From Hyphomicrobiales bacterium (lineage in GTDB: Bacteria > Pseudomonadota > Alphaproteobacteria > Rhizobiales > Rhizobiaceae), in assembly GCA_900473805.1 (NCBI GenBank), contig UCMS01000008.1:1-64000 (forward strand): a stretch of DNA of 64,000 bases, in the 5' to 3' direction. The position numbers were made by a program, and so were the translations under genes. Below, piece by piece: positions 51,770 through 60,016 of this stretch; the first letter of the stretch is position 1; each line of letters starts with the position of its first letter. The notes under the pieces were generated by a model. The model saw only the letters and a program-made list of their open reading frames with translations, did no database searches and was not told where the DNA came from.

Positions 51770-52115
51770 AGGGGGCTCCCTCCTGCTTGGTCGCTACTGC
51801 GACATCATCATCCGCAATCACCGGGGAAACGCCGCAACAGCGATCGAGGTCCCCGATCGGAGGATGAAGGCTGCGGATTTCGTCCCAGCCACGGCGGCGA
51901 CCCCCAACTGATTTTTGGACACCCCGCGGGTTGAGTTGTCTGACGAACCGACACGTTCTCCCGCCATCACGAAAGCAGATGACTGGATCAGCTTTTTTCA
52001 TACGGCATGTCCGGCCTTACAGATTGACAGTTTCGAATTCATGGCATCAACTGACATTGTCAGACATCTTACATATACAGGGAACAGTGTCTGTTCGTCT
52101 TACAGGAGGAATGCC
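51770..52115. other. 346-bp divergent promoter region
   Basis: No supported gene. It holds the promoters of the HTH gene (minus) and the binding-protein gene (plus). The right end carries GntR-type operator sequences at 52057-52067, with a weaker copy (TCGTCTTACAG) at 52095-52105 overlapping the ribosome site. Confidence 0.55.
52057..52067. promoter_or_regulatory. Candidate GntR operator upstream of the binding-protein gene
   Basis: TTGTCAGACAT, matching the 11-mers found before the GntR gene and the deglycase gene. Variants ACATCTTACAT (52064-52074) and TCGTCTTACAG (52095-52105) follow, so several dimers could bind. Confidence 0.55.
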
Positions 52116-52943
52116 ATGAAGAAGTTCATCACCGGCTTGGCCCTGGGGGCCGCTGTCCTTGCAATGACGTCTGCGGCGCATGCCGGTTCGACACTTGATC
52201 GCGTCATGGGGAAAAAGGCGATGGTCGTCGCCACCAACAGCGGCTGGCCGCCGCAGAGCTATCTCGACGACAATAACGAGATGGTCGGTTTCGACATCGA
52301 CGTTTCCAAGGAAATCGCCAAGCGGCTCGGCGTCGAGGTCAGCTTCGAAACACCGGAATGGGCAACCCTGACGGGCGGGCGCTGGCAAGGGCGCTACGAT
52401 CTCGGCGTTGGCTCCGTCACGCCGACCAAAGCCCGCGCACAGGTGATCGACTTCGTCGGCATCTATTATTTCAGCCCCTATGTCTATGTGCTGCACAAGG
52501 ACAGTACGGCAAAATCGGTCGAGGATCTGAACGGGAAGGTCATCGGCGTGGAGACGGCCACAACCTCGGAAGATTTCATCAATCGAAAACTTGAAATCGA
52601 CGCTCCCGGCCTGCCACCGATCGAATACAAGCTCGAGCCAGGTGAAGTGCGTACCTTCGCCGATTCCATGTTGCCCTTCGATGACCTCCGCCTCGGCGAC
52701 GGCGTTCGCCTTGATGCCGTGATCGCCCCTGAACAGACGGCGCTCAATGCGATCAAGAACGGCTATCCGCTGCGGATCCTTGAAGGCGAATACGCATTCC
52801 GGGAGCCTCTGGTGGTCATCGCAGAAAAGGTCGATCCGGAATGGACCGCCAAGGTCGGCGGCATCATCGAGGAGATGAAGAAAGACGGTACTTTGTCCGC
52901 CCTGACCACCAAGTGGTACGGCAAGGACTACAGCGCCAACTGA
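52116..52943 (+). CDS. Amino-acid-type ABC transporter substrate-binding protein
   Basis: 275 aa, Sec signal peptide (cleavage near AAHAG, residue 23), then a family 3 solute-binding fold: VVATNSGWPPQSYLDDNNEMVGFDIDVSKEIAKRLG, RYDLGVGSVTPTKAR, NGKVIGVETATTSEDF and a C-terminal MKKDGTLSALTTKWYGKDY. GGAGGA precedes ATG 52116. It is the first gene of an operon with an FAD oxidoreductase, a permease and an EamA transporter. In this context (FrlB/FrlD nearby) the ligand may be an Amadori compound such as deoxyfructosyl-amino acid (inference), as for SocA of Agrobacterium. Confidence 0.88.
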   Translation: MKKFITGLALGAAVLAMTSAAHAGSTLDRVMGKKAMVVATNSGWPPQSYLDDNNEMVGFDIDVSKEIAKRLGVEVSFETPEWATLTGGRWQGRYDLGVGSVTPTKARAQVIDFVGIYYFSPYVYVLHKDSTAKSVEDLNGKVIGVETATTSEDFINRKLEIDAPGLPPIEYKLEPGEVRTFADSMLPFDDLRLGDGVRLDAVIAPEQTALNAIKNGYPLRILEGEYAFREPLVVIAEKVDPEWTAKVGGIIEEMKKDGTLSALTTKWYGKDYSAN

Positions 52944-52994
52944 CCTGCCGGCGTGGAGACAGGTTCTCCACGCCCAACCGCCTCCGGTGCCCCC

Positions 52995-54275
52995 ATGAAC
53001 TATCCCGACACTTATTATTCCAGGACGCTCACCGACCGGACCGAGCGGCCGGCGCTCTCAGGCGACATCACCTGTGACACGGTCGTCATTGGCGGTGGCC
53101 TCGCCGGCATTACCACGGCCTTGCAACTGTCGCGCGGCGGGCAGAAGGTGGTCGTCCTCGAGGCAAAGTCGATCGGGTTCGGCGCCTCGGGGCGCAATGG
53201 CGGTTTCGTCAGTGCCGGTTATGCGACCGATGTCGAACAGATATCCGGGATCGCCGGCCGAGAGGCGGCACACCGTCTCTATCTGATGTCGATCGAAGGC
53301 GTCGATTTCGTCAGAGACTCGATTTCAGGACTTAGCATCGCCGGCGCCGATCCGGTCGACGGCGTCACAAGCGTGATGCGCTATGATGACGGCGACGGTC
53401 TGCGGACCTATGCCACCGAGGCGCGCCAAAGATACGGGCAAGACCTGGAATATCTCGACACCGCCCGCGTTCGGCGGGAACTGAAATCCACGCGCTATTT
53501 TCACGGCGTCCGGGATCGGAAGGCATTTCACATCCATCCGCTGAACTACCTGCGGGGTCTCGCGGCCGAAATCGAGCGGCTGGGCGGTGTGATCTGCGAA
53601 AACTCGAATGCAATCGCCACCGAACTCAACGCTGGCAACAAGACGGTGCGTACAGCGGGTGGCACGGTAACCGCCCGAACCGTCGTCTTCTCGACCGGCG
53701 GATACACAGACCAACTGAACCCACGGCTCCGACGGGCGATGCTGCCGATCGCGACTTATGTCATGGTCACCGAGGAGGCCCCGGAGCTGATTGCCACGGC
53801 AATCACCACCCGAGATGGTATCGGCGACAACCGCCGGGCCGGTGACTACTACCGCCTGGTCGATGGCGGCAAACGGCTTCTATGGGGTGGGCGAATTACG
53901 ACGCGCGCCGCCTCCATGTCCGGCCTGGTCCACGAACTGCGGCGGGAGATGACGGGTACTTATCCGCAGCTGCGCGACCTCAAGACAGAATTGGCGTGGT
54001 CGGGGCTCATGGCCTATGCCCGGCACCTCATGCCCCAGATCGGTGAAATGCAGCCGGGGGTCTGGCATTGCACTGCCTTCGGCGGTCACGGCCTGAACAC
54101 GACAGCGATCGGGGGCAAGGTGGTTGCCGAAGGGATCCTTGGCGAAAGTGAACGGTACAAGTTGTTTGCCCCTTTCGGCCTGGTCTGGGCTGGCGGCATG
54201 GCGGGTCTGGCAGCCGCACAACTCACGTATTGGAAGCTCCAGGCACAAGACTGGTGGCGCGAACGAGCGGCCTGA
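52995..54275 (+). CDS. FAD-dependent amine/amino-acid oxidoreductase (DAO family)
   Basis: About 426 aa. Dinucleotide-binding motif VIGGGLAGITTALQLSRGGQKVVVLE (about 31-57), then GASGRNGGFVSAG, typical of PuuB/DAO enzymes, and a C-terminal FAD segment AFGGHGLNTTAIGGKVVAE. The related SocD is an amadoriase that oxidatively releases the amine from deoxyfructosyl amino acids (established); gamma-glutamylputrescine oxidase is another relative. The start is uncertain: ATG 52995 has only a weak site, GTG 52953 is possible. It lies between binding protein and permease, so it acts on the imported compound. Confidence 0.85.
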   Translation: MNYPDTYYSRTLTDRTERPALSGDITCDTVVIGGGLAGITTALQLSRGGQKVVVLEAKSIGFGASGRNGGFVSAGYATDVEQISGIAGREAAHRLYLMSIEGVDFVRDSISGLSIAGADPVDGVTSVMRYDDGDGLRTYATEARQRYGQDLEYLDTARVRRELKSTRYFHGVRDRKAFHIHPLNYLRGLAAEIERLGGVICENSNAIATELNAGNKTVRTAGGTVTARTVVFSTGGYTDQLNPRLRRAMLPIATYVMVTEEAPELIATAITTRDGIGDNRRAGDYYRLVDGGKRLLWGGRITTRAASMSGLVHELRREMTGTYPQLRDLKTELAWSGLMAYARHLMPQIGEMQPGVWHCTAFGGHGLNTTAIGGKVVAEGILGESERYKLFAPFGLVWAGGMAGLAAAQLTYWKLQAQDWWRERAA

Positions 54276-54287
54276 AAGGACAGCAGA

Positions 54288-55259
54288 ATGATCGGTCGTC
54301 TTATTCTTACCTATCCGGAGGCCTCCCGGCGCGTCGGCGGCTTGCTGATCCTCGTGCTCATTGCGCTGTCCCTTTACGCTCTGGGCATCAGTGGTGCCTG
54401 GATCGGCCGGCTGGTTCCTGCGGCCGATGCCGTTCTTGCCGACCATCCGGCGACCGCGAGAGCGTTGTCCGCAGCCCTGATCGCCATCATCATGGCCCTC
54501 AACTGGAAGCTCCTGCACCTTTTGAAGCGCAGTCATCAGATCGTCGCGGTCTGGCTGGAGCTCTTCGGCCTGCTGATGGTCTTCTTCTACTCCTTCGACC
54601 TCTCCTTTGCCTTCATCGCCAAGAAGATCGGCTTCCTGATCACCCAGGGCGTCACGACGACGTTGTTCATCTCGGCGATTTCGATCGTCATCGCGACCGC
54701 AATCGCGCTGGCCGGAGCGATTGCCAAGCTTTCCCGCAACGGCGTGATCTATGGGCTTGCGACTTTCTATACCTCGCTTTTCCGTGGCCTCCCGCTGCTC
54801 ATGCAGATCTACATCATCTATCTCGGCCTGCCACAGGTCGGTTATGTCATCGGGGCTATCCCGGCCGGCATCCTGGCGCTTTCCCTATGCTACGGCGCCT
54901 ATATGACTGAAATCTTCCGGGCCGGCATCGAGAGCATTTCGCGTGGTCAGACAGAGGGTGCGACAGCACTCGGCCTCTCCCCCAGCCAGACAATGGGACT
55001 GGTGATCCTGCCACAGGCCATGCGGGTGATCATCCCGCCGACGGGCAACCAGTTTATCGCGATGCTGAAGGATTCCTCCCTCGTATCGGTCGTCGGTGTC
55101 TGGGAGATCATGTATCTTGCCAGGACCCAGGGGCAGACCGAGTTCCGCCATATCGAGATGCTGATCACCGCCTCGATGATCTACTGGCTTCTGTCGATCG
55201 GTCTCGAGTTCCTGCAGGCCCGCATCGAGGAACGGTTCGGTCGCTTCAATGTCCGCTGA
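54288..55259 (+). CDS. Amino-acid-type ABC transporter permease
   Basis: 323 aa. An N-terminal extension of about 115 residues with three hydrophobic segments precedes a HisM/GlnP-type permease domain (GVTTTLFISAISIVIATAIALAG, SLFRGLPLLMQIYIIYLG, EIFRAGIESISRGQTEGATALGLS as the EAA loop). AAGGA precedes the ATG. Only one permease is present and no ATPase gene follows, which is unusual. The missing ATPase must come from elsewhere. Confidence 0.9.
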   Translation: MIGRLILTYPEASRRVGGLLILVLIALSLYALGISGAWIGRLVPAADAVLADHPATARALSAALIAIIMALNWKLLHLLKRSHQIVAVWLELFGLLMVFFYSFDLSFAFIAKKIGFLITQGVTTTLFISAISIVIATAIALAGAIAKLSRNGVIYGLATFYTSLFRGLPLLMQIYIIYLGLPQVGYVIGAIPAGILALSLCYGAYMTEIFRAGIESISRGQTEGATALGLSPSQTMGLVILPQAMRVIIPPTGNQFIAMLKDSSLVSVVGVWEIMYLARTQGQTEFRHIEMLITASMIYWLLSIGLEFLQARIEERFGRFNVR

Positions 55260-56130
55260 CTGCGTATGCGACACCGGAGGCGGCCGCGCGTCGCGCAACC
55301 GTCGAGGTGTCGTGCTCACACTGTTGGCCTTCGCCGTGTTTTCGGGGACGGATGCGATCGTCAAGCTCAGCACTGCGCGACTACCGGCACCCCAGGTCAC
55401 GCTTCTGGTCACGATCGCAGCCTTCGTCGTCCTCTGCCTCTATGCCGCCTTGACCGGCAACACACGTCGGCTCATGCCCCGACAGCCAAAGACCGCATTT
55501 TTGCGTGCGGTGCTGCTTGCGGGCGACACGGTGCTGATCCACTACGCCTTCGCACTGTTGCCCCTGTCGGAAGCCTATCTTCTGGCCTTTCTCACGCCCA
55601 TCCTGGTGGCCGTGATATCCTTTGTCCTCCTCGGCGAGCGGCTTTCGGTCACCGGCTGGGCGGGTGTCATCCTCGGCTTTGCCGGTGTGGCGGTGGCGCT
55701 GCAACCGGGGTCTGCCGAGATCAACCTCGGCCATCTGGCAGCGCTTGGTTCGGCCGTGCTGTTTGCGCTCTCGCTCCTCCTGTTGCGCAGGACAAAGATC
55801 GAGGAGAACGATGAGGCCTTGCTGTCCTCCCTGTTCGTCGTGCTGATCCCGCTCGCGCTGGCGGTCGCGTCGGCCCATGAGGGCCTGGTCTCCTTACGCC
55901 CGTTGGACGTCGCCCTGGTGGTGGCGGGGGGCATCCTGCTTCTCGCCGGTCACGGGCTGCTGATCCGTGCTTTCCGGATTGCGGAGGCATCGGTGGTGGC
56001 CCCGTTCCAGTACAGTCAAATCATCTGGGGCTGTCTCTACGGAGCACTTCTGTTTTCGGCGCCGATTGAGATGCACACCCTTTTGGGGGCGGCCATCATC
56101 ATCGTTTCTGGGTGGCTGGTTCTTAAATAG
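55249..56130 (+). CDS. EamA/DMT-family transporter
   Basis: 293 aa with ten predicted membrane segments in two EamA repeats (about 20-145 and 155-292; first ends FVLLGERLSVTGWAGVILGFAGVAVAL, second ends AIIIVSGWLVL). Its ATG overlaps the last 11 bp of the permease gene. Ribosome site is weak, so translation is probably coupled. It may export a product or import a related metabolite; the family covers many metabolites. Confidence 0.88.
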   Translation: MSADCVCDTGGGRASRNRRGVVLTLLAFAVFSGTDAIVKLSTARLPAPQVTLLVTIAAFVVLCLYAALTGNTRRLMPRQPKTAFLRAVLLAGDTVLIHYAFALLPLSEAYLLAFLTPILVAVISFVLLGERLSVTGWAGVILGFAGVAVALQPGSAEINLGHLAALGSAVLFALSLLLLRRTKIEENDEALLSSLFVVLIPLALAVASAHEGLVSLRPLDVALVVAGGILLLAGHGLLIRAFRIAEASVVAPFQYSQIIWGCLYGALLFSAPIEMHTLLGAAIIIVSGWLVLK

Positions 56131-56153
56131 CAGCCGACCTGCAGGGGTTGCGC

Positions 56154-56885
56154 CTATTTGCGGACCAGGCTGAAGGTGAAATGGCTGCCTCGATGATAGT
56201 CCAGCGCATAATTGACCGGCTTGCCCGCCGCGTCGAAACAGGTCTCCGCAATCAGCAGGGACGGACCAAAATCGCGCAGATCGTGACGCTCCACGACGTC
56301 CGAGGGCAAAAGGACCGAAGAGACTGTCGCCGCCGACATGCGCGGCCGGTGGCGATATTGCTCCAGCAGATTGAGCAGCGAGCCACTCCAGTCGATGTCG
56401 TAGACCTTGGCAGGAATGATCGTACGCGGGATGTAGTCGATGCAGTAGAGAATTGGCTCCTCGTCATGGAGGCGCAAACGTTCGATCCTGATTACGCGCG
56501 CCTTGCTCTCCAGACCGAGCTTTTCCGCCACCAGAGCCGGCGCATCTTCCTCGCTGATCGAGAGGACCTTGTTCACCGGCCGATAGCCATAGTGTTGCGC
56601 CATGTCGGTGACGCTTTCGAACACGGTGATCGGTCTGTCGACCTGGACCGCCGACATCGCCGATATGAATCGACCCCGGCCGTGCTCGACATAAATGATA
56701 TCGTCCTGCTCGAGAAGTTTCAGTGCCTCTCGAAGAGCCGGACGAGAGATACGGAACCGCTGGGTCAGCTGAGCTTCGGTCGGCAGCTTGTCGCCGGGCT
56801 TGAGCCCCTCGGCGCGAATGAGCTCTGCGATCCGGTCCCGAAGCTGGATCGCCAGGGTTCTGGAATCACGGATCGGATCGTCCAC
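56154..56885 (-). CDS. GntR/HutC-family regulator with UTRA domain
   Basis: 243 aa from GTG 56885 (GAGGTG upstream); the frame extends to 56945, but that would include the operator region. A winged-helix HTH (about 10-75; GDKLPTEAQLTQRFRISRPALREALKLLEQDDIIYVEHGRGRFI) is followed by a UTRA ligand-binding domain. Related FrlR/SocR proteins control Amadori-compound genes. It lies between the two target operons: the transporter operon ends convergent to it and frlBD begins divergent from it. The 11-bp sites TTGTC-T-KACAM before all three units are the likely operators. Confidence 0.88.
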   Translation of the reverse strand: MDDPIRDSRTLAIQLRDRIAELIRAEGLKPGDKLPTEAQLTQRFRISRPALREALKLLEQDDIIYVEHGRGRFISAMSAVQVDRPITVFESVTDMAQHYGYRPVNKVLSISEEDAPALVAEKLGLESKARVIRIERLRLHDEEPILYCIDYIPRTIIPAKVYDIDWSGSLLNLLEQYRHRPRMSAATVSSVLLPSDVVERHDLRDFGPSLLIAETCFDAAGKPVNYALDYHRGSHFTFSLVRK

Positions 56886-56899
56886 GGCCACCTCGCAGT

Positions 56900-56926
56900 T
56901 TGTCTTACACCGTTCTTGTCTGACAA
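56900..56926. promoter_or_regulatory. Two GntR operator-like sites before the regulator gene
   Basis: TTGTCTTACAC (56900-56910) and TTGTCTGACAA (56916-56926), centres 16 bp apart, 15 bp upstream of the GTG start of the GntR gene. Suggests autorepression. Confidence 0.6.
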
Positions 56927-57038
56927 AGGCTGCAAGGTCAAGCATCGTGCCGGTTCGTTACAGCCGCTACGAACGTTGAGAAACTCGCCGAGCCCTCCCT
57001 CCCCTCATCACCTTGACGCAGAGCGATAATGATGTCAG

Positions 57039-57049
57039 TTGTCTTACAA
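57039..57049. promoter_or_regulatory. GntR operator-like site before the deglycase gene
   Basis: TTGTCTTACAA, extended as AGTTGT-CTT-ACAACT (57037-57051), an inverted repeat 43 bp before the FrlB-like start. Confidence 0.62.
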
Positions 57050-57093
57050 CTTAGTGCGCCATGTATAGCCTAACCTCATGGATGGAGAGCCGA

Positions 57094-58107
57094 ATGCTTA
57101 ATTTCGACGAAAACCGTTTCCTCACGATCCAGGGCGGTGCGGTCGCCTTGCGCGACCGTCTGGACCGCGTGGTTTCCGACTGCCTGACAGCCGGCGCTGA
57201 AAACATCTATTTCCTCGGCACGGGTGGTGCCGCCATCCTGATGCAGCCCGCAGCCCAGTTGCTTCAGCGTCGCTCCCGCTTTCCCGCCTTCATCGACATG
57301 CCAGCGGAATTGATCCTCACGGGATCCGCCAATCTCTCGTCCAAATCCATCGTCGTGATCCCGTCCCTTTCGGGGACCACGAAGGAGAGCGTTGCCCTTC
57401 TGGAAAAATTGAAGGAGATCGGAGCGACCGTAATCACGCTGGTCGGCCATGCCGAGACGCCGCTCGGCCAAGGCGGAGACCATGTGTTCGTCAACTTCGC
57501 CGAGGACGACACGTCCTGTGAATCCTTCTATCTGCAATCGCTGTTCATCGCCCTGTCTGTCATGCGCCACCGCGGCGAAATCTCGAACTATGCCGAAATC
57601 GCCAGCGAACTGGACCGCCTTCCGGCCCTGCTGCTCGAGGTGAAACGCGCTTTTGAGCCTCAGGCGGAAGCCTTCGCACGGAAGCTGGCGGCGGCCGATT
57701 ACCACATCATCACCGGCGCCGGAAATGTGTGGCCGGAGGCCTTTTATTACGGCATGTGCATTCTGGAAGAGATGCAGTGGATCCGCACCCGCCCCGTGCA
57801 TGCCTCCGACTTCTTCCACGGCACTCTGGAGCTCATTGAAAAAGGCGTCAGCCTGATCCTCTTCAAAGGCGAAGACGAGTTGCGGCCGCTGGCCGAACGT
57901 GTCGAGAAATTCGCCCCGACCTATACCGACTCCATGACGGTCCTGGATACGGCGGAGTTCGAGCTTCCGGGGATCTCTTCCGAGGTTCGCAAGCTGATCT
58001 CGCCTGTTCTGCTGGCTACCGTGCTCGAGCGGATCAGTGCCCATCTCGAGGTCATGCGTAATCATCCGCTTACAACACGCCGTTACTACAAACGCGTCGC
58101 CTACTAA
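57094..58107 (+). CDS. frlB: FrlB-like SIS-domain sugar isomerase/deglycase
   Basis: 337 aa with two SIS domains. First: NIYFLGTGGAAILMQPAAQLLQ (about 36-57) and IPSLSGTTKES (about 87-97); second begins near ADYHIITGAG. ASDFFHGTLELIEKG contains the His/Glu region used by FrlB and GlmS-like isomerases. FrlB cleaves fructoselysine 6-phosphate to glucose 6-phosphate and lysine. ATG 57094 has GGAGAG upstream; earlier in-frame ATGs lack sites. It precedes the FrlD-like kinase, whose product it would use. The exact amino acid part of the substrate is unknown. Confidence 0.82.
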   Translation: MLNFDENRFLTIQGGAVALRDRLDRVVSDCLTAGAENIYFLGTGGAAILMQPAAQLLQRRSRFPAFIDMPAELILTGSANLSSKSIVVIPSLSGTTKESVALLEKLKEIGATVITLVGHAETPLGQGGDHVFVNFAEDDTSCESFYLQSLFIALSVMRHRGEISNYAEIASELDRLPALLLEVKRAFEPQAEAFARKLAAADYHIITGAGNVWPEAFYYGMCILEEMQWIRTRPVHASDFFHGTLELIEKGVSLILFKGEDELRPLAERVEKFAPTYTDSMTVLDTAEFELPGISSEVRKLISPVLLATVLERISAHLEVMRNHPLTTRRYYKRVAY

Positions 58108-58180
58108 GACGACAGAACGGAAGGGATCGCGCCGCGACGCTTGCGCGATCCCGTCGTGCACGGCATGAAGGGGGATGACC

Positions 58181-58984
58181 ATGCTCAGATTTGCCGCAGT
58201 CGGTGACAACTGCATCGATCGCTTCCGCCCCTCGGGCCTGTCGCTGATCGGCGGCAATGCAGTGAACGTCGTCGTGCAGCTGGCGCGGCTCGGTCACCAG
58301 GCCCACTATTTCGGTGCGGTCGGCGAAGATGCCGACGGCCATCGTACGATCGCGGCCCTTGCCGCACATGGCGTGAAGGTCGGCAACGTCCAGCGCAAGC
58401 CCGGCCACACCGCCTTCACCGACATCGACGTTCTCCCCTCTGGCGAACGCGTCTTCGCCTATGAAGATTTCGGCGTCTGCGCCGGCTATCGCCCGACATT
58501 GGCGGAGGTCGAGATGCTGAAAACCATGGACCACGTGCATATCGGATGGATGGACGACCACGGGGCGCTCAAAGAAGAGCTTTGTCGGGCCGGCGTCTCG
58601 GTTTCACAGGACATATCCGTGAATGCCCACCCGGAAAACCTGCTCGTATCCGGTCTTTCGGTTGCCTTCGGATCGGCGGGCGAAGATGCTGGCCTGGCCG
58701 ACATCATGCTGCGCCGACTGATCGCAGAGGGAGCGAAGCTGGCCGTCGTCACGCGCGGCGCCGACGGCGCTTGTGTCAGTGATGGCGAACAGACGATCGC
58801 GGCGGGTGCCCAGCCGGTCGACGTCATCGATACGACGGGAGCGGGTGACAGCTTCATCGCAGGATTTCTCTCTGCCTACCGCGCGGGATCTGGCTGGGAA
58901 ACGTGCCTGGAGGCGGGCCAGAGGCTCGCCGCGCAAACCTGCGGCCATCTTGGCGGTTTTCCGCAGGCAGAGCAGGTCCGATAG
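58181..58984 (+). CDS. frlD: FrlD-like PfkB-family kinase
   Basis: 267 aa. The start FAAVGDNCIDRF and SLIGGNAVNVVVQLARLG match fructoselysine 6-kinase FrlD closely. The C-terminal ATP/base motif DTTGAGDSFIAGFL with catalytic Asp (near residue 223) is intact. It phosphorylates an Amadori compound at C6 for the deglycase. ATG 58181 is eight bases after AGGGG; ATG 58175 lies inside the site. 73 bp after the deglycase gene. Confidence 0.85.
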   Translation: MLRFAAVGDNCIDRFRPSGLSLIGGNAVNVVVQLARLGHQAHYFGAVGEDADGHRTIAALAAHGVKVGNVQRKPGHTAFTDIDVLPSGERVFAYEDFGVCAGYRPTLAEVEMLKTMDHVHIGWMDDHGALKEELCRAGVSVSQDISVNAHPENLLVSGLSVAFGSAGEDAGLADIMLRRLIAEGAKLAVVTRGADGACVSDGEQTIAAGAQPVDVIDTTGAGDSFIAGFLSAYRAGSGWETCLEAGQRLAAQTCGHLGGFPQAEQVR

Positions 58985-59029: not shown

Positions 59030-60016
59030 TCAGGCAGGCAGGGCATTTCGCATCTGACCCGGCGTCTTTCCGTGCACGCTCTTGAACACGCGGTTGAAAT
59101 GCGAGGTGTTCTCAAAGCCGACCTGAAGGGCGATGTCGATCAGCGAGGCATCCGTCTGGGCGACGAGCATTTTCGCCCGCTCCATGCGCAGCCGCATATA
59201 GACCTTGGCGGGAGAGGCCTTCAGTTCCTGGGCGAAAAGCCGTTCGAGCTGGCGGCGGGAGAGGCCCACCGAGCGTGCAAGCTGATCGATCGTAAGCTCG
59301 CTTTCAAGCGTCTGCTCCATCAGGATGAGCACGGCCTTCAGTCGCGGATCCTCACATTCGATGGTCAGCGGGCGGCGCACCTGGATATCTCGGTTCGACC
59401 GGGCGCGCTCGATCTGCAGCACCTCCAAAGCATTTCGCTCGGCATCGTGGCCGAGATACTGGCGCACGATGAAGGCCGCGAGATCGGCAGAACTGCTGCC
59501 GCCGGCGCAGGAACCGCGTCGCCGGTCAAGATTGAAGAGCCTGTCCGAGCGGACATCGAGATCCGGGAAGCGTTCCCGAAACGCCTGATAATGGAGCCAA
59601 CTGACGCAACTCTGATGACCCTTCATCAGGCCTGCATCCGCGAGAATGAAGGTGCCCGTGCACAATCCGATCAAAGGCACCTTCTGCGCATCCGCACGGC
59701 GCAGGAACTGGACAGTCTCCGCATCCACCGCTGCCTGCTGGCCGAGCAGGCCACCGACCACAACGATGTAGTCGAAACGGCTCGGATCGACGAAATCGCT
59801 GGTGGGCGCCACCTGGACCCCGCAACTGGATGTGATCAGGTGGCGCGTGCTGCCAAGCACCTGCCAATCGGCATTGACCCGGCCGGACCGATCGAACTCG
59901 TCACTGGCAAGACGGATGGTATCGACAAAAAGAGCAAAGGCCGACAGCGTGAAGGCGCGCGACAGCACGAAGGCGATCTTCAATTGCGGTTTCGTGTTGC
60001 GCTCCGCAGTAGCCAT
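59030..60016 (-). CDS. GlxA-family transcriptional regulator (DJ-1/PfpI + AraC HTH)
   Basis: 328 aa. A DJ-1/PfpI-like N-terminal domain (about 12-185) with nucleophile-elbow-like GLCTGTFILADAGLM (near residue 118), then an AraC HTH domain (ELTIDQLARSVGLSRRQLERLFAQELKASPAKVYMRLRMERA and DIALQVGFENTSHFNRVFKSVHGKTPGQMR). The family often activates amine or quaternary-ammonium catabolism (GbdR, ArgR/OruR types). It is convergent with frlBD and might respond to an amine derived from that pathway. ATG 60016. Confidence 0.88.
   Translation of the reverse strand: MATAERNTKPQLKIAFVLSRAFTLSAFALFVDTIRLASDEFDRSGRVNADWQVLGSTRHLITSSCGVQVAPTSDFVDPSRFDYIVVVGGLLGQQAAVDAETVQFLRRADAQKVPLIGLCTGTFILADAGLMKGHQSCVSWLHYQAFRERFPDLDVRSDRLFNLDRRRGSCAGGSSSADLAAFIVRQYLGHDAERNALEVLQIERARSNRDIQVRRPLTIECEDPRLKAVLILMEQTLESELTIDQLARSVGLSRRQLERLFAQELKASPAKVYMRLRMERAKMLVAQTDASLIDIALQVGFENTSHFNRVFKSVHGKTPGQMRNALPA

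Follow-up and report, generated by a model that had tools for sequence, protein, structure and literature searches.

The locus described here lies in a 64,000-nt window (the whole stretch of DNA analysed; positions 1 to 64,000 of contig UCMS01000008.1, assembly GCA_900473805.1, from a Hyphomicrobiales bacterium of the Rhizobiaceae), and consists of two operons and one regulator gene. The first operon (52116-56130) has the order substrate-binding protein (SBP), DAO-family flavoenzyme, permease and EamA transporter, the second encodes a SIS-domain protein and a PfkB-family kinase, and gntR lies between them on the opposite strand. The preliminary description placed both operons in one GntR regulon, and the shared operators, their conservation, the specificity of a 16-nt sequence and the TTGAC boxes upstream of the operators all bear this out. 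The regulon is real and sharply bounded.

Related loci were collected by the presence of importer and flavoenzyme (51 loci). After L146, L157 and L162 were dropped as duplicates, 48 unique loci were left, of which 34 have this GntR (at least 55% identity) and 14 do not; loci below 48% identity for the SBP or 43% for the flavoenzyme (such as L050, L151, L039 and L040) are not counted. The principal features of the window locus are as follows.

52024-52052, + strand: predicted importer-operon promoter, TTGACA at 52024, 17 bp, TCAACT at 52047
52057-52073, + strand: operator 1, TTGTCAGACATCTTACA; 11-mer at 52057-52067, 16-mer at 52058-52073, near the inferred transcription start
52116-52943, + strand: SBP_bac_3 substrate-binding protein (Pfam, 107.5 bits)
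52995-54275, + strand: DAO-family flavoenzyme of the pipecolate/glycine/proline oxidase-dehydrogenase type, not SocD (Pfam, NCBIfam, SocD alignment, fold comparison)
54288-55259, + strand: amino-acid ATP-binding cassette (ABC) permease (BPD_transp_1 at residues 141-317)
55249-56130, + strand: EamA/DMT transporter (Pfam), optional in the family (21/34 loci)
56154-56885, - strand: GntR/HutC (UTRA) regulator (UTRA 103.7 bits, GntR 56.8 bits), probable GTG start
56926-56916, - strand: operator 2, TTGTCAGACAA, between and over the gntR promoter boxes
56913-56941, - strand: predicted gntR promoter, TTGACC at 56941-56936, CAAGAA at 56918-56913
57013-57049, + strand: predicted SIS-kinase promoter, TTGACG at 57013-57018, the range including operator 3
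57033-57049, + strand: operator 3; 16-mer at 57033-57048, 11-mer at 57039-57049
57094-58107, + strand: putative SIS-domain deglycase, FrlB/Gfr-like (Pfam, NCBIfam, solved matches, residue conservation)
58175-58984, + strand: PfkB-family sugar kinase, FrlD-like (NF007321, 166.7 bits, cut-off 247)

The gntR gene very likely starts at the GTG at 56885, and not at the listed open reading frame start at 56945, because annotated relatives have 243 amino acids and because the stretch 56885-56945 holds the gntR promoter and operator; the 56916 site therefore lies upstream of the gene. The permease has about 100 additional residues at its N-terminus, the NCBIfam matches beginning at about residue 105-118.

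The operators share an 11-nt sequence, TTGTCNKACAW, which occurs exactly at 52057 (TTGTCAGACAT) before the importer/flavoenzyme operon, at 56916 (TTGTCTGACAA) before gntR, where it is a palindrome about one central base, and at 57039 (TTGTCTTACAA) before the SIS-kinase operon. A longer 16-mer, TGTCWGWYRWCTKACA, is common to the two operon promoters. The importer-side sequence (TGTCAGACATCTTACA) and the SIS-side sequence (TGTCAGTTGTCTTACA) are variants of one composite operator, in which the 11-mer is at the left before the importer genes and at the right before the SIS gene, so that each composite reads as a palindrome plus a third half-site. The preliminary description had counted four 11-mer sites. 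The three above stand as exact matches, while the fourth, at 56900, has one mismatch and is found in the window only among the 34 unique loci with this GntR. By itself the 11-mer is weak against chance: there are 26 matches in the window's own genome (13+13) against 23 (9+14) for the reversed control, and with one mismatch allowed the window has 16 sites against 6.7 expected, a number reached by 1 of 100 shuffles. It was therefore rejected as a genome-wide regulon finder, having no excess over its reversed control, and the 16-mer was used instead. It is position and conservation that raise the motif above chance.

Across the 34 unique GntR-containing loci, the strict 11-mer lies no more than 350 bp from the binding-protein gene in 32 and the 16-mer precedes the importer operon in 32, with one or the other present in all 34. 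Both precede the SIS gene (at least 66% identity) in 31 of 31 loci, and the gntR operator TTGTCAGACAA is exact in 30 of 34, being one letter off in L061, L066, L068 and L160. Neither the 11-mer nor the 16-mer precedes the importer in any of the 14 loci that keep importer and flavoenzyme without this GntR (for the 16-mer, Fisher p 2.5e-10, a value that ignores relatedness, the 14 loci being generally less closely related to the window). In many loci the relative arrangement of the two operons has changed, but both retain their operators. A motif search across related genomes, which had been proposed as a check on the regulon, thus finds the motif co-conserved with the genes.

The 16-mer is sharply specific within the genus. 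It occurs exactly twice in each of 13 of the 63 same-genus genomes, always at the two operon promoters, and these 13 are exactly the genomes that have both the SIS protein (at least 81% identity) and the flavoenzyme (at least 71%). Eight other genomes have it at one unrelated place each, with the sequence TGTCTGTCAACTGACA; the reversed 16-mer occurs in none of the 63. Because the degenerate positions of the 16-mer were defined from these same sites, what is informative is that it is absent elsewhere. The 16-mer regulon within the genus is these two operons, and gntR joins through its own 11-mer. The window's own genome has the 16-mer only at the two operon promoters, which leaves no other importer as a candidate for the regulon. 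Other 11-mer places in five genus members were also inspected; among those listed, L118 and L119 are the same locus, and L120-L122 have no flavoenzyme, SIS gene or this GntR.

The sequence TGTCTGTCAACTGACA is identical in its eight genomes (G173, G174, G160, G214, G215, G216, G218 and G219), none of which carries the locus. In the window, an AraC-type regulator gene (59030-60016) adjoins the kinase gene in convergent orientation. Its nearest family is GbdR of choline metabolism (223 bits, cut-off 480), and no 16-mer is found at it.

A TTGAC box lies upstream of the operator in 34/34 importer promoters, 34/34 gntR promoters and 31/31 SIS promoters by script count, the -10 boxes and transcription starts in the window having been assigned by eye. 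The importer operator is approximately at the expected transcription start, and the SIS operator covers the -10 region. Because a TTGAC box lies upstream of each operator in all loci counted, repression by blocking of RNA polymerase at the promoter is likely. The regulator itself has a GntR helix-turn-helix and a UTRA domain, which place it in the HutC subfamily (Pfam).

Two further operator-like sequences are less widely conserved.

51936-51946, + strand: predicted auxiliary operator-like site, TTGTCTGACGA, one mismatch, 121 bp above the 52057 site
56900-56910, + strand: TTGTCTTACAC, one mismatch to the 11-mer, the fourth site mentioned above

The auxiliary site was scanned for in 33 of the 34 GntR-containing loci including the window (L038 was left out). 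A site with 0-1 mismatch at an offset of 120-122 bp is present in 7 of 32 relatives (L037, L141-L145 and L148; 8 of 33 loci counting the window), and is exact in L148 (L148:4466-4476). The same eight loci have 121-123 bp between their gntR and SIS operators. In the window's clade both operator arrays are spaced by about 121 bp, which was considered as a sign of looping; this finds no wider support, because the gntR-SIS spacing ranges from 109 to 143 bp (a range that omits L048, whose SIS-side site is divergent).

FrlB acts as a deglycase and FrlD as a kinase, and it is these two proteins that the second operon most resembles. The best family of the kinase is fructoselysine 6-kinase (NF007321), with the next family at 75.8 bits, and the nearest family of the SIS protein is fructoselysine 6-phosphate deglycase (NF008481, 84.9 bits, cut-off 430). 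Among solved structures, the SIS protein is most similar in sequence to 2a3n (243 bits, residues 1-336), which we take to be a Salmonella Gfr deglycase; it also matches 3eua, a putative fructose-aminoacid-6-phosphate deglycase (141 bits over 29-337). Glu226 and His242, separated by 16 residues, are conserved without exception in the 11 relatives compared, which reach down to 58% identity, and are presumably the catalytic pair known from FraB. The SIS domain, the near-full-length solved matches and the Glu/His pair together place the protein among the SIS-type fructosamine-6-phosphate deglycases in the wider sense. The FrlD/FrlB route of the preliminary description therefore holds at the level of family resemblance, though both proteins fall below the curated cut-offs.

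The same SIS deglycase is also found in another plasmid gene group (L039:800-10880, 77%; L040:937-10014, 70%), together with an asparaginase, an amino-acid ABC transporter, an MmgE/PrpD protein and a protein annotated as argininosuccinate lyase. This group resembles iminodisuccinate degradation, and glycated aspartate or asparagine may be handled by it as a third route. In a second cluster type (L041, L051-L055, L152 and L153), a SIS protein of 57-62% identity occurs with a PfkB kinase, and a different DAO flavoenzyme is present in 7 of these 8 loci, not being seen in L055, which is near a contig end. The L041 cluster has a sugar-type ABC transporter, and the DAO form of L052 scores 425 bits against the putative aminophosphonate oxidoreductase family (cut-off 632.8).

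The flavoenzyme had been described as a SocD-like oxidative enzyme, and this part of the description fails, since there is no full-length similarity and the best curated family differs from that of SocD. The alignment to the pAtC58 gene called SocD (the names SocD, C, B, A and R were given to the pAtC58 genes by their order) covers 48 N-terminal residues at the nucleotide-binding motif (E 2.5e-5), so homology to SocD was rejected, and a search of the complete pAtC58 record with the flavoenzyme gave no match at E 1e-5. Among curated families it scores highest against L-pipecolate oxidase AmaA (NF050086, 162.1 bits, below the cut-off of 600), followed by a putative aminophosphonate oxidoreductase (111.8 of 632.8); against glycine oxidase ThiO, which is the best curated family of SocD, it scores 72.4 bits (cut-off 250.8). 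The structural model is confident (mean predicted local distance difference test score 90.3), and its nearest fold is glycine oxidase (Z 38.6, root-mean-square deviation 2.7, 351 aligned), with L-proline dehydrogenase slightly further away (Z 36.4, 3.0, 354 aligned). The top fold matches are close together, sarcosine oxidase types being among the first and the flavin opine dehydrogenase 7fgp also being listed (Z 33.2). No amadoriase is among the fold matches listed, which excludes nothing. By family score and modelled fold, the flavoenzyme thus groups with the oxidases/dehydrogenases of pipecolate, glycine and proline.

The octopine Ti plasmid was also considered, with its opine oxidase as a possible nearest relative; this was rejected, there being a single 47-residue match in the record. 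The window's own genome has a second DAO-family gene (G000:C58:81663-82829), 36% identical to the flavoenzyme and approximately 23 kb downstream of the locus.

The binding protein differs from its solved relatives at a position of some interest. The window protein has Pro205, where an Asp is found both in the pAtC58 binding protein and in the three solved relatives shown; it is this Asp that usually binds the alpha-ammonium group. We compared residues between the 34 GntR-containing loci and 7 near loci without GntR, requiring 90% agreement in the former group and 80% in the latter. No SBP position separates the two groups, and in the flavoenzyme one conservative position does (352, M/L). This points to one and the same ligand whether or not the deglycase is present, and would favour direct action of the flavoenzyme on the imported compound. 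The window locus has no ATPase gene for the importer (there are 23 bp between the EamA gene and the end of gntR); in 17 of 34 cases the locus includes such a gene, often as the last of the importer operon. In the window's own genome, the nearest ATPase (74% identity) is encoded after permease genes on a different contig; by eye, we take it to belong to a general amino-acid transporter. In B. subtilis, a shared ATPase (MsmX) can drive a fructosamine importer, according to an excerpt of PMC12632257. As for EamA, it is matched only in two separate pieces (L143:7209-8086, L148:7783-8241), most of it is missing in L148, and the gene seems to be decaying in some relatives.

The locus occurs on plasmids of Sinorhizobium, Ensifer, Shinella, Rhizobium and Pararhizobium; in Sinorhizobium meliloti Ak57 the plasmid is pSymB. 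Within a sample of 151 genomes of the family, this GntR (E 1e-50) is found in the 9 that have a SIS protein of at least 76% identity, plus G070, which has a SIS protein of 69% and this GntR and lacks the importer trio. A SIS gene of either subfamily is present in 33 of the 34 GntR-containing loci, the importer-flavoenzyme trio being joined to the second subfamily (58-60%) in L069, L160 and L161, the last two of which also have a kinase and a second DAO gene on the stretch concerned. In L061, GntR and operator accompany the trio, and the 19 kb read there contains no SIS gene. Among the loci compared, only L050 has a SIS gene and this type of GntR without the flavoenzyme, and it is also without the importer. 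The trio is found without GntR and SIS in L110-L115 and others, including other proteobacteria. Pfam assignment of 10 of the 44 listed neighbours of trios without GntR gave no common partner, and 10 neighbours in six further loci comprised one class III aminotransferase, three genes without a family and others unlike one another. A PALP-family gene lies beside the lone trio of L114 (L114:11429-12703).

Our preferred reading, held tentatively and at a little under an even chance, is that of a GntR-repressed fructosamine-type system in which the flavoenzyme would form a complementary branch beside the kinase and deglycase. In this scheme, the GntR/HutC-type repressor would block three promoters (that of its own gene and those of the importer-flavoenzyme and SIS-kinase operons) through operators overlapping the promoter core, and the inducer would probably be a fructosamine-type (N-glycated) amino acid or its phosphorylated form. 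The importer would take the ligand in, driven by an ATPase that it shares with another system, perhaps with the general amino-acid transporter; the kinase would phosphorylate it, and the deglycase would split the product to hexose phosphate and amine. The flavoenzyme would attack the C-N bond, oxidising either this imported ligand or N-substituted compounds closely related to it. Several observations weigh against this scheme. HutC operators usually have 4 nt between GT and AC, with known exceptions, in the available text of PMC4494728; the conserved 11-mer has 3 nt, a spacing shared with the FadR group, and we infer binding by this GntR. The two operons encode no SocC-like oxidoreductase for a freed dicarbonyl sugar. 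A class III aminotransferase beside the trio in a Pseudomonas, and a diaminopropionate ammonia-lyase nearby in a Shinella (L061:13718-14926, with GntR and no SIS), point to plain amines. Finally, the flavoenzyme is present in 34 of 34 GntR-containing loci, against 21 for EamA and 17 for the ATPase, a pattern more in keeping with an obligatory step than with a second branch that can be dispensed with, although this count is partly forced, the loci having been chosen by their flavoenzyme.

That constancy would be expected if the enzymes were used in sequence, with fructosyl-X imported, phosphorylated and deglycated, and the freed X then oxidised by the flavoenzyme, so that both sugar and nitrogen are used. 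We regard this as possible, with a chance nearer one in three than one in two. No locus compared has the SIS gene, this GntR and this importer without the flavoenzyme, the nearest families and folds oxidise free small amino acids (pipecolate, glycine, proline), and the different DAO enzyme near SIS and kinase genes in the second cluster type (26-29% identical) suggests that the pairing arose more than once. Against this, the importer and the flavoenzyme are also retained where the kinase and deglycase are absent, and in 5 of the 6 family genomes from which L110-L115 come, no relative of the SIS protein is found at E 1e-20. Nor do SBP residues distinguish loci with GntR from those lacking it, so that a single pocket would need to accommodate X as well as fructosyl-X. 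Complementary branches stand slightly ahead of sequential use, and neither is held as shown. The trio without GntR and SIS in other proteobacteria would also be expected if the two halves were merely co-regulated by a shared signal, importer and flavoenzyme serving an unrelated amine and kinase and deglycase clearing intracellular glycated amino acids. The lack of the acidic residue of the solved relatives shown would agree with this in that the SBP ligand may not be a standard amino acid, but the SIS gene in 33 of 34 GntR-containing loci is a tighter tie than a loose metabolic one predicts, and we consider this explanation unlikely. Less probable still is a flavin step that comes first, in which cleavage on the amino-acid side would give a keto acid and 1-amino-1-deoxyfructose, and kinase and SIS protein would then yield hexose phosphate and ammonia; if true, the two routes would be one fructosamine pathway. 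The original form of the proposal, a SocD-type amadoriase with FrlBD under one operator, has in its favour the nucleotide-binding motif of the DAO superfamily common to both enzymes. It is refuted as homology by the absence of full-length similarity, the soc regulator is of the LacI type, and the fused permease-ATPase and the Gfo/Idh/MocA enzyme of soc are absent here, so that only the activity could agree, and we consider it very improbable.

Among the matches listed, no description of this locus was found in the open-licence literature. Deoxyfructosyl-glutamine, an Amadori compound, is reported from decaying plant material (in part of PMC4231840), and plant-associated bacteria would therefore meet such compounds. 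The substrate question is testable, since the operator can serve as an inducer reporter, and genomes with and without the deglycase half provide a natural comparison.

The soc genes, which adjoin repABC of pAtC58, are likewise a Rhizobiaceae plasmid system for an Amadori compound (deoxyfructosyl-glutamine) with a DAO-superfamily enzyme, as far as the extract of PMC4231840 describes them. The soc region of pAtC58 contains DAO-type, Gfo/Idh/MocA, permease-ATPase, binding-protein and LacI regulator genes and, unlike the window, no kinase or SIS gene. The window in turn has a GntR/UTRA regulator and a permease without fused ATPase, and no Gfo/Idh/MocA enzyme; the two binding proteins are distantly similar (22.6% over 235 residues). 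The AmaA/ThiO branch gives some of the highest curated scores and the nearest fold (glycine oxidase) for the flavoenzyme, which lies far below the family cut-offs. Salmonella Gfr deglycases act on compounds that a phosphotransferase system both imports and phosphorylates (PMC12675984, in part); the window encodes a kinase instead. The frl systems of B. subtilis (frlBONMD-frlP/FrlR) and E. coli have deglycase and kinase genes, as here. B. subtilis frl also has ABC import, with the shared ATPase MsmX, and a repressor, FrlR; in the sections of PMC12632257 available, no DAO flavoenzyme is named for frl, and MsmX and FrlP drive sugar-type importers, whereas the window importer is of the amino-acid kind. 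Relative to these systems, the locus combines kinase/deglycase chemistry with a flavoenzyme and an amino-acid importer under a very specific operator.

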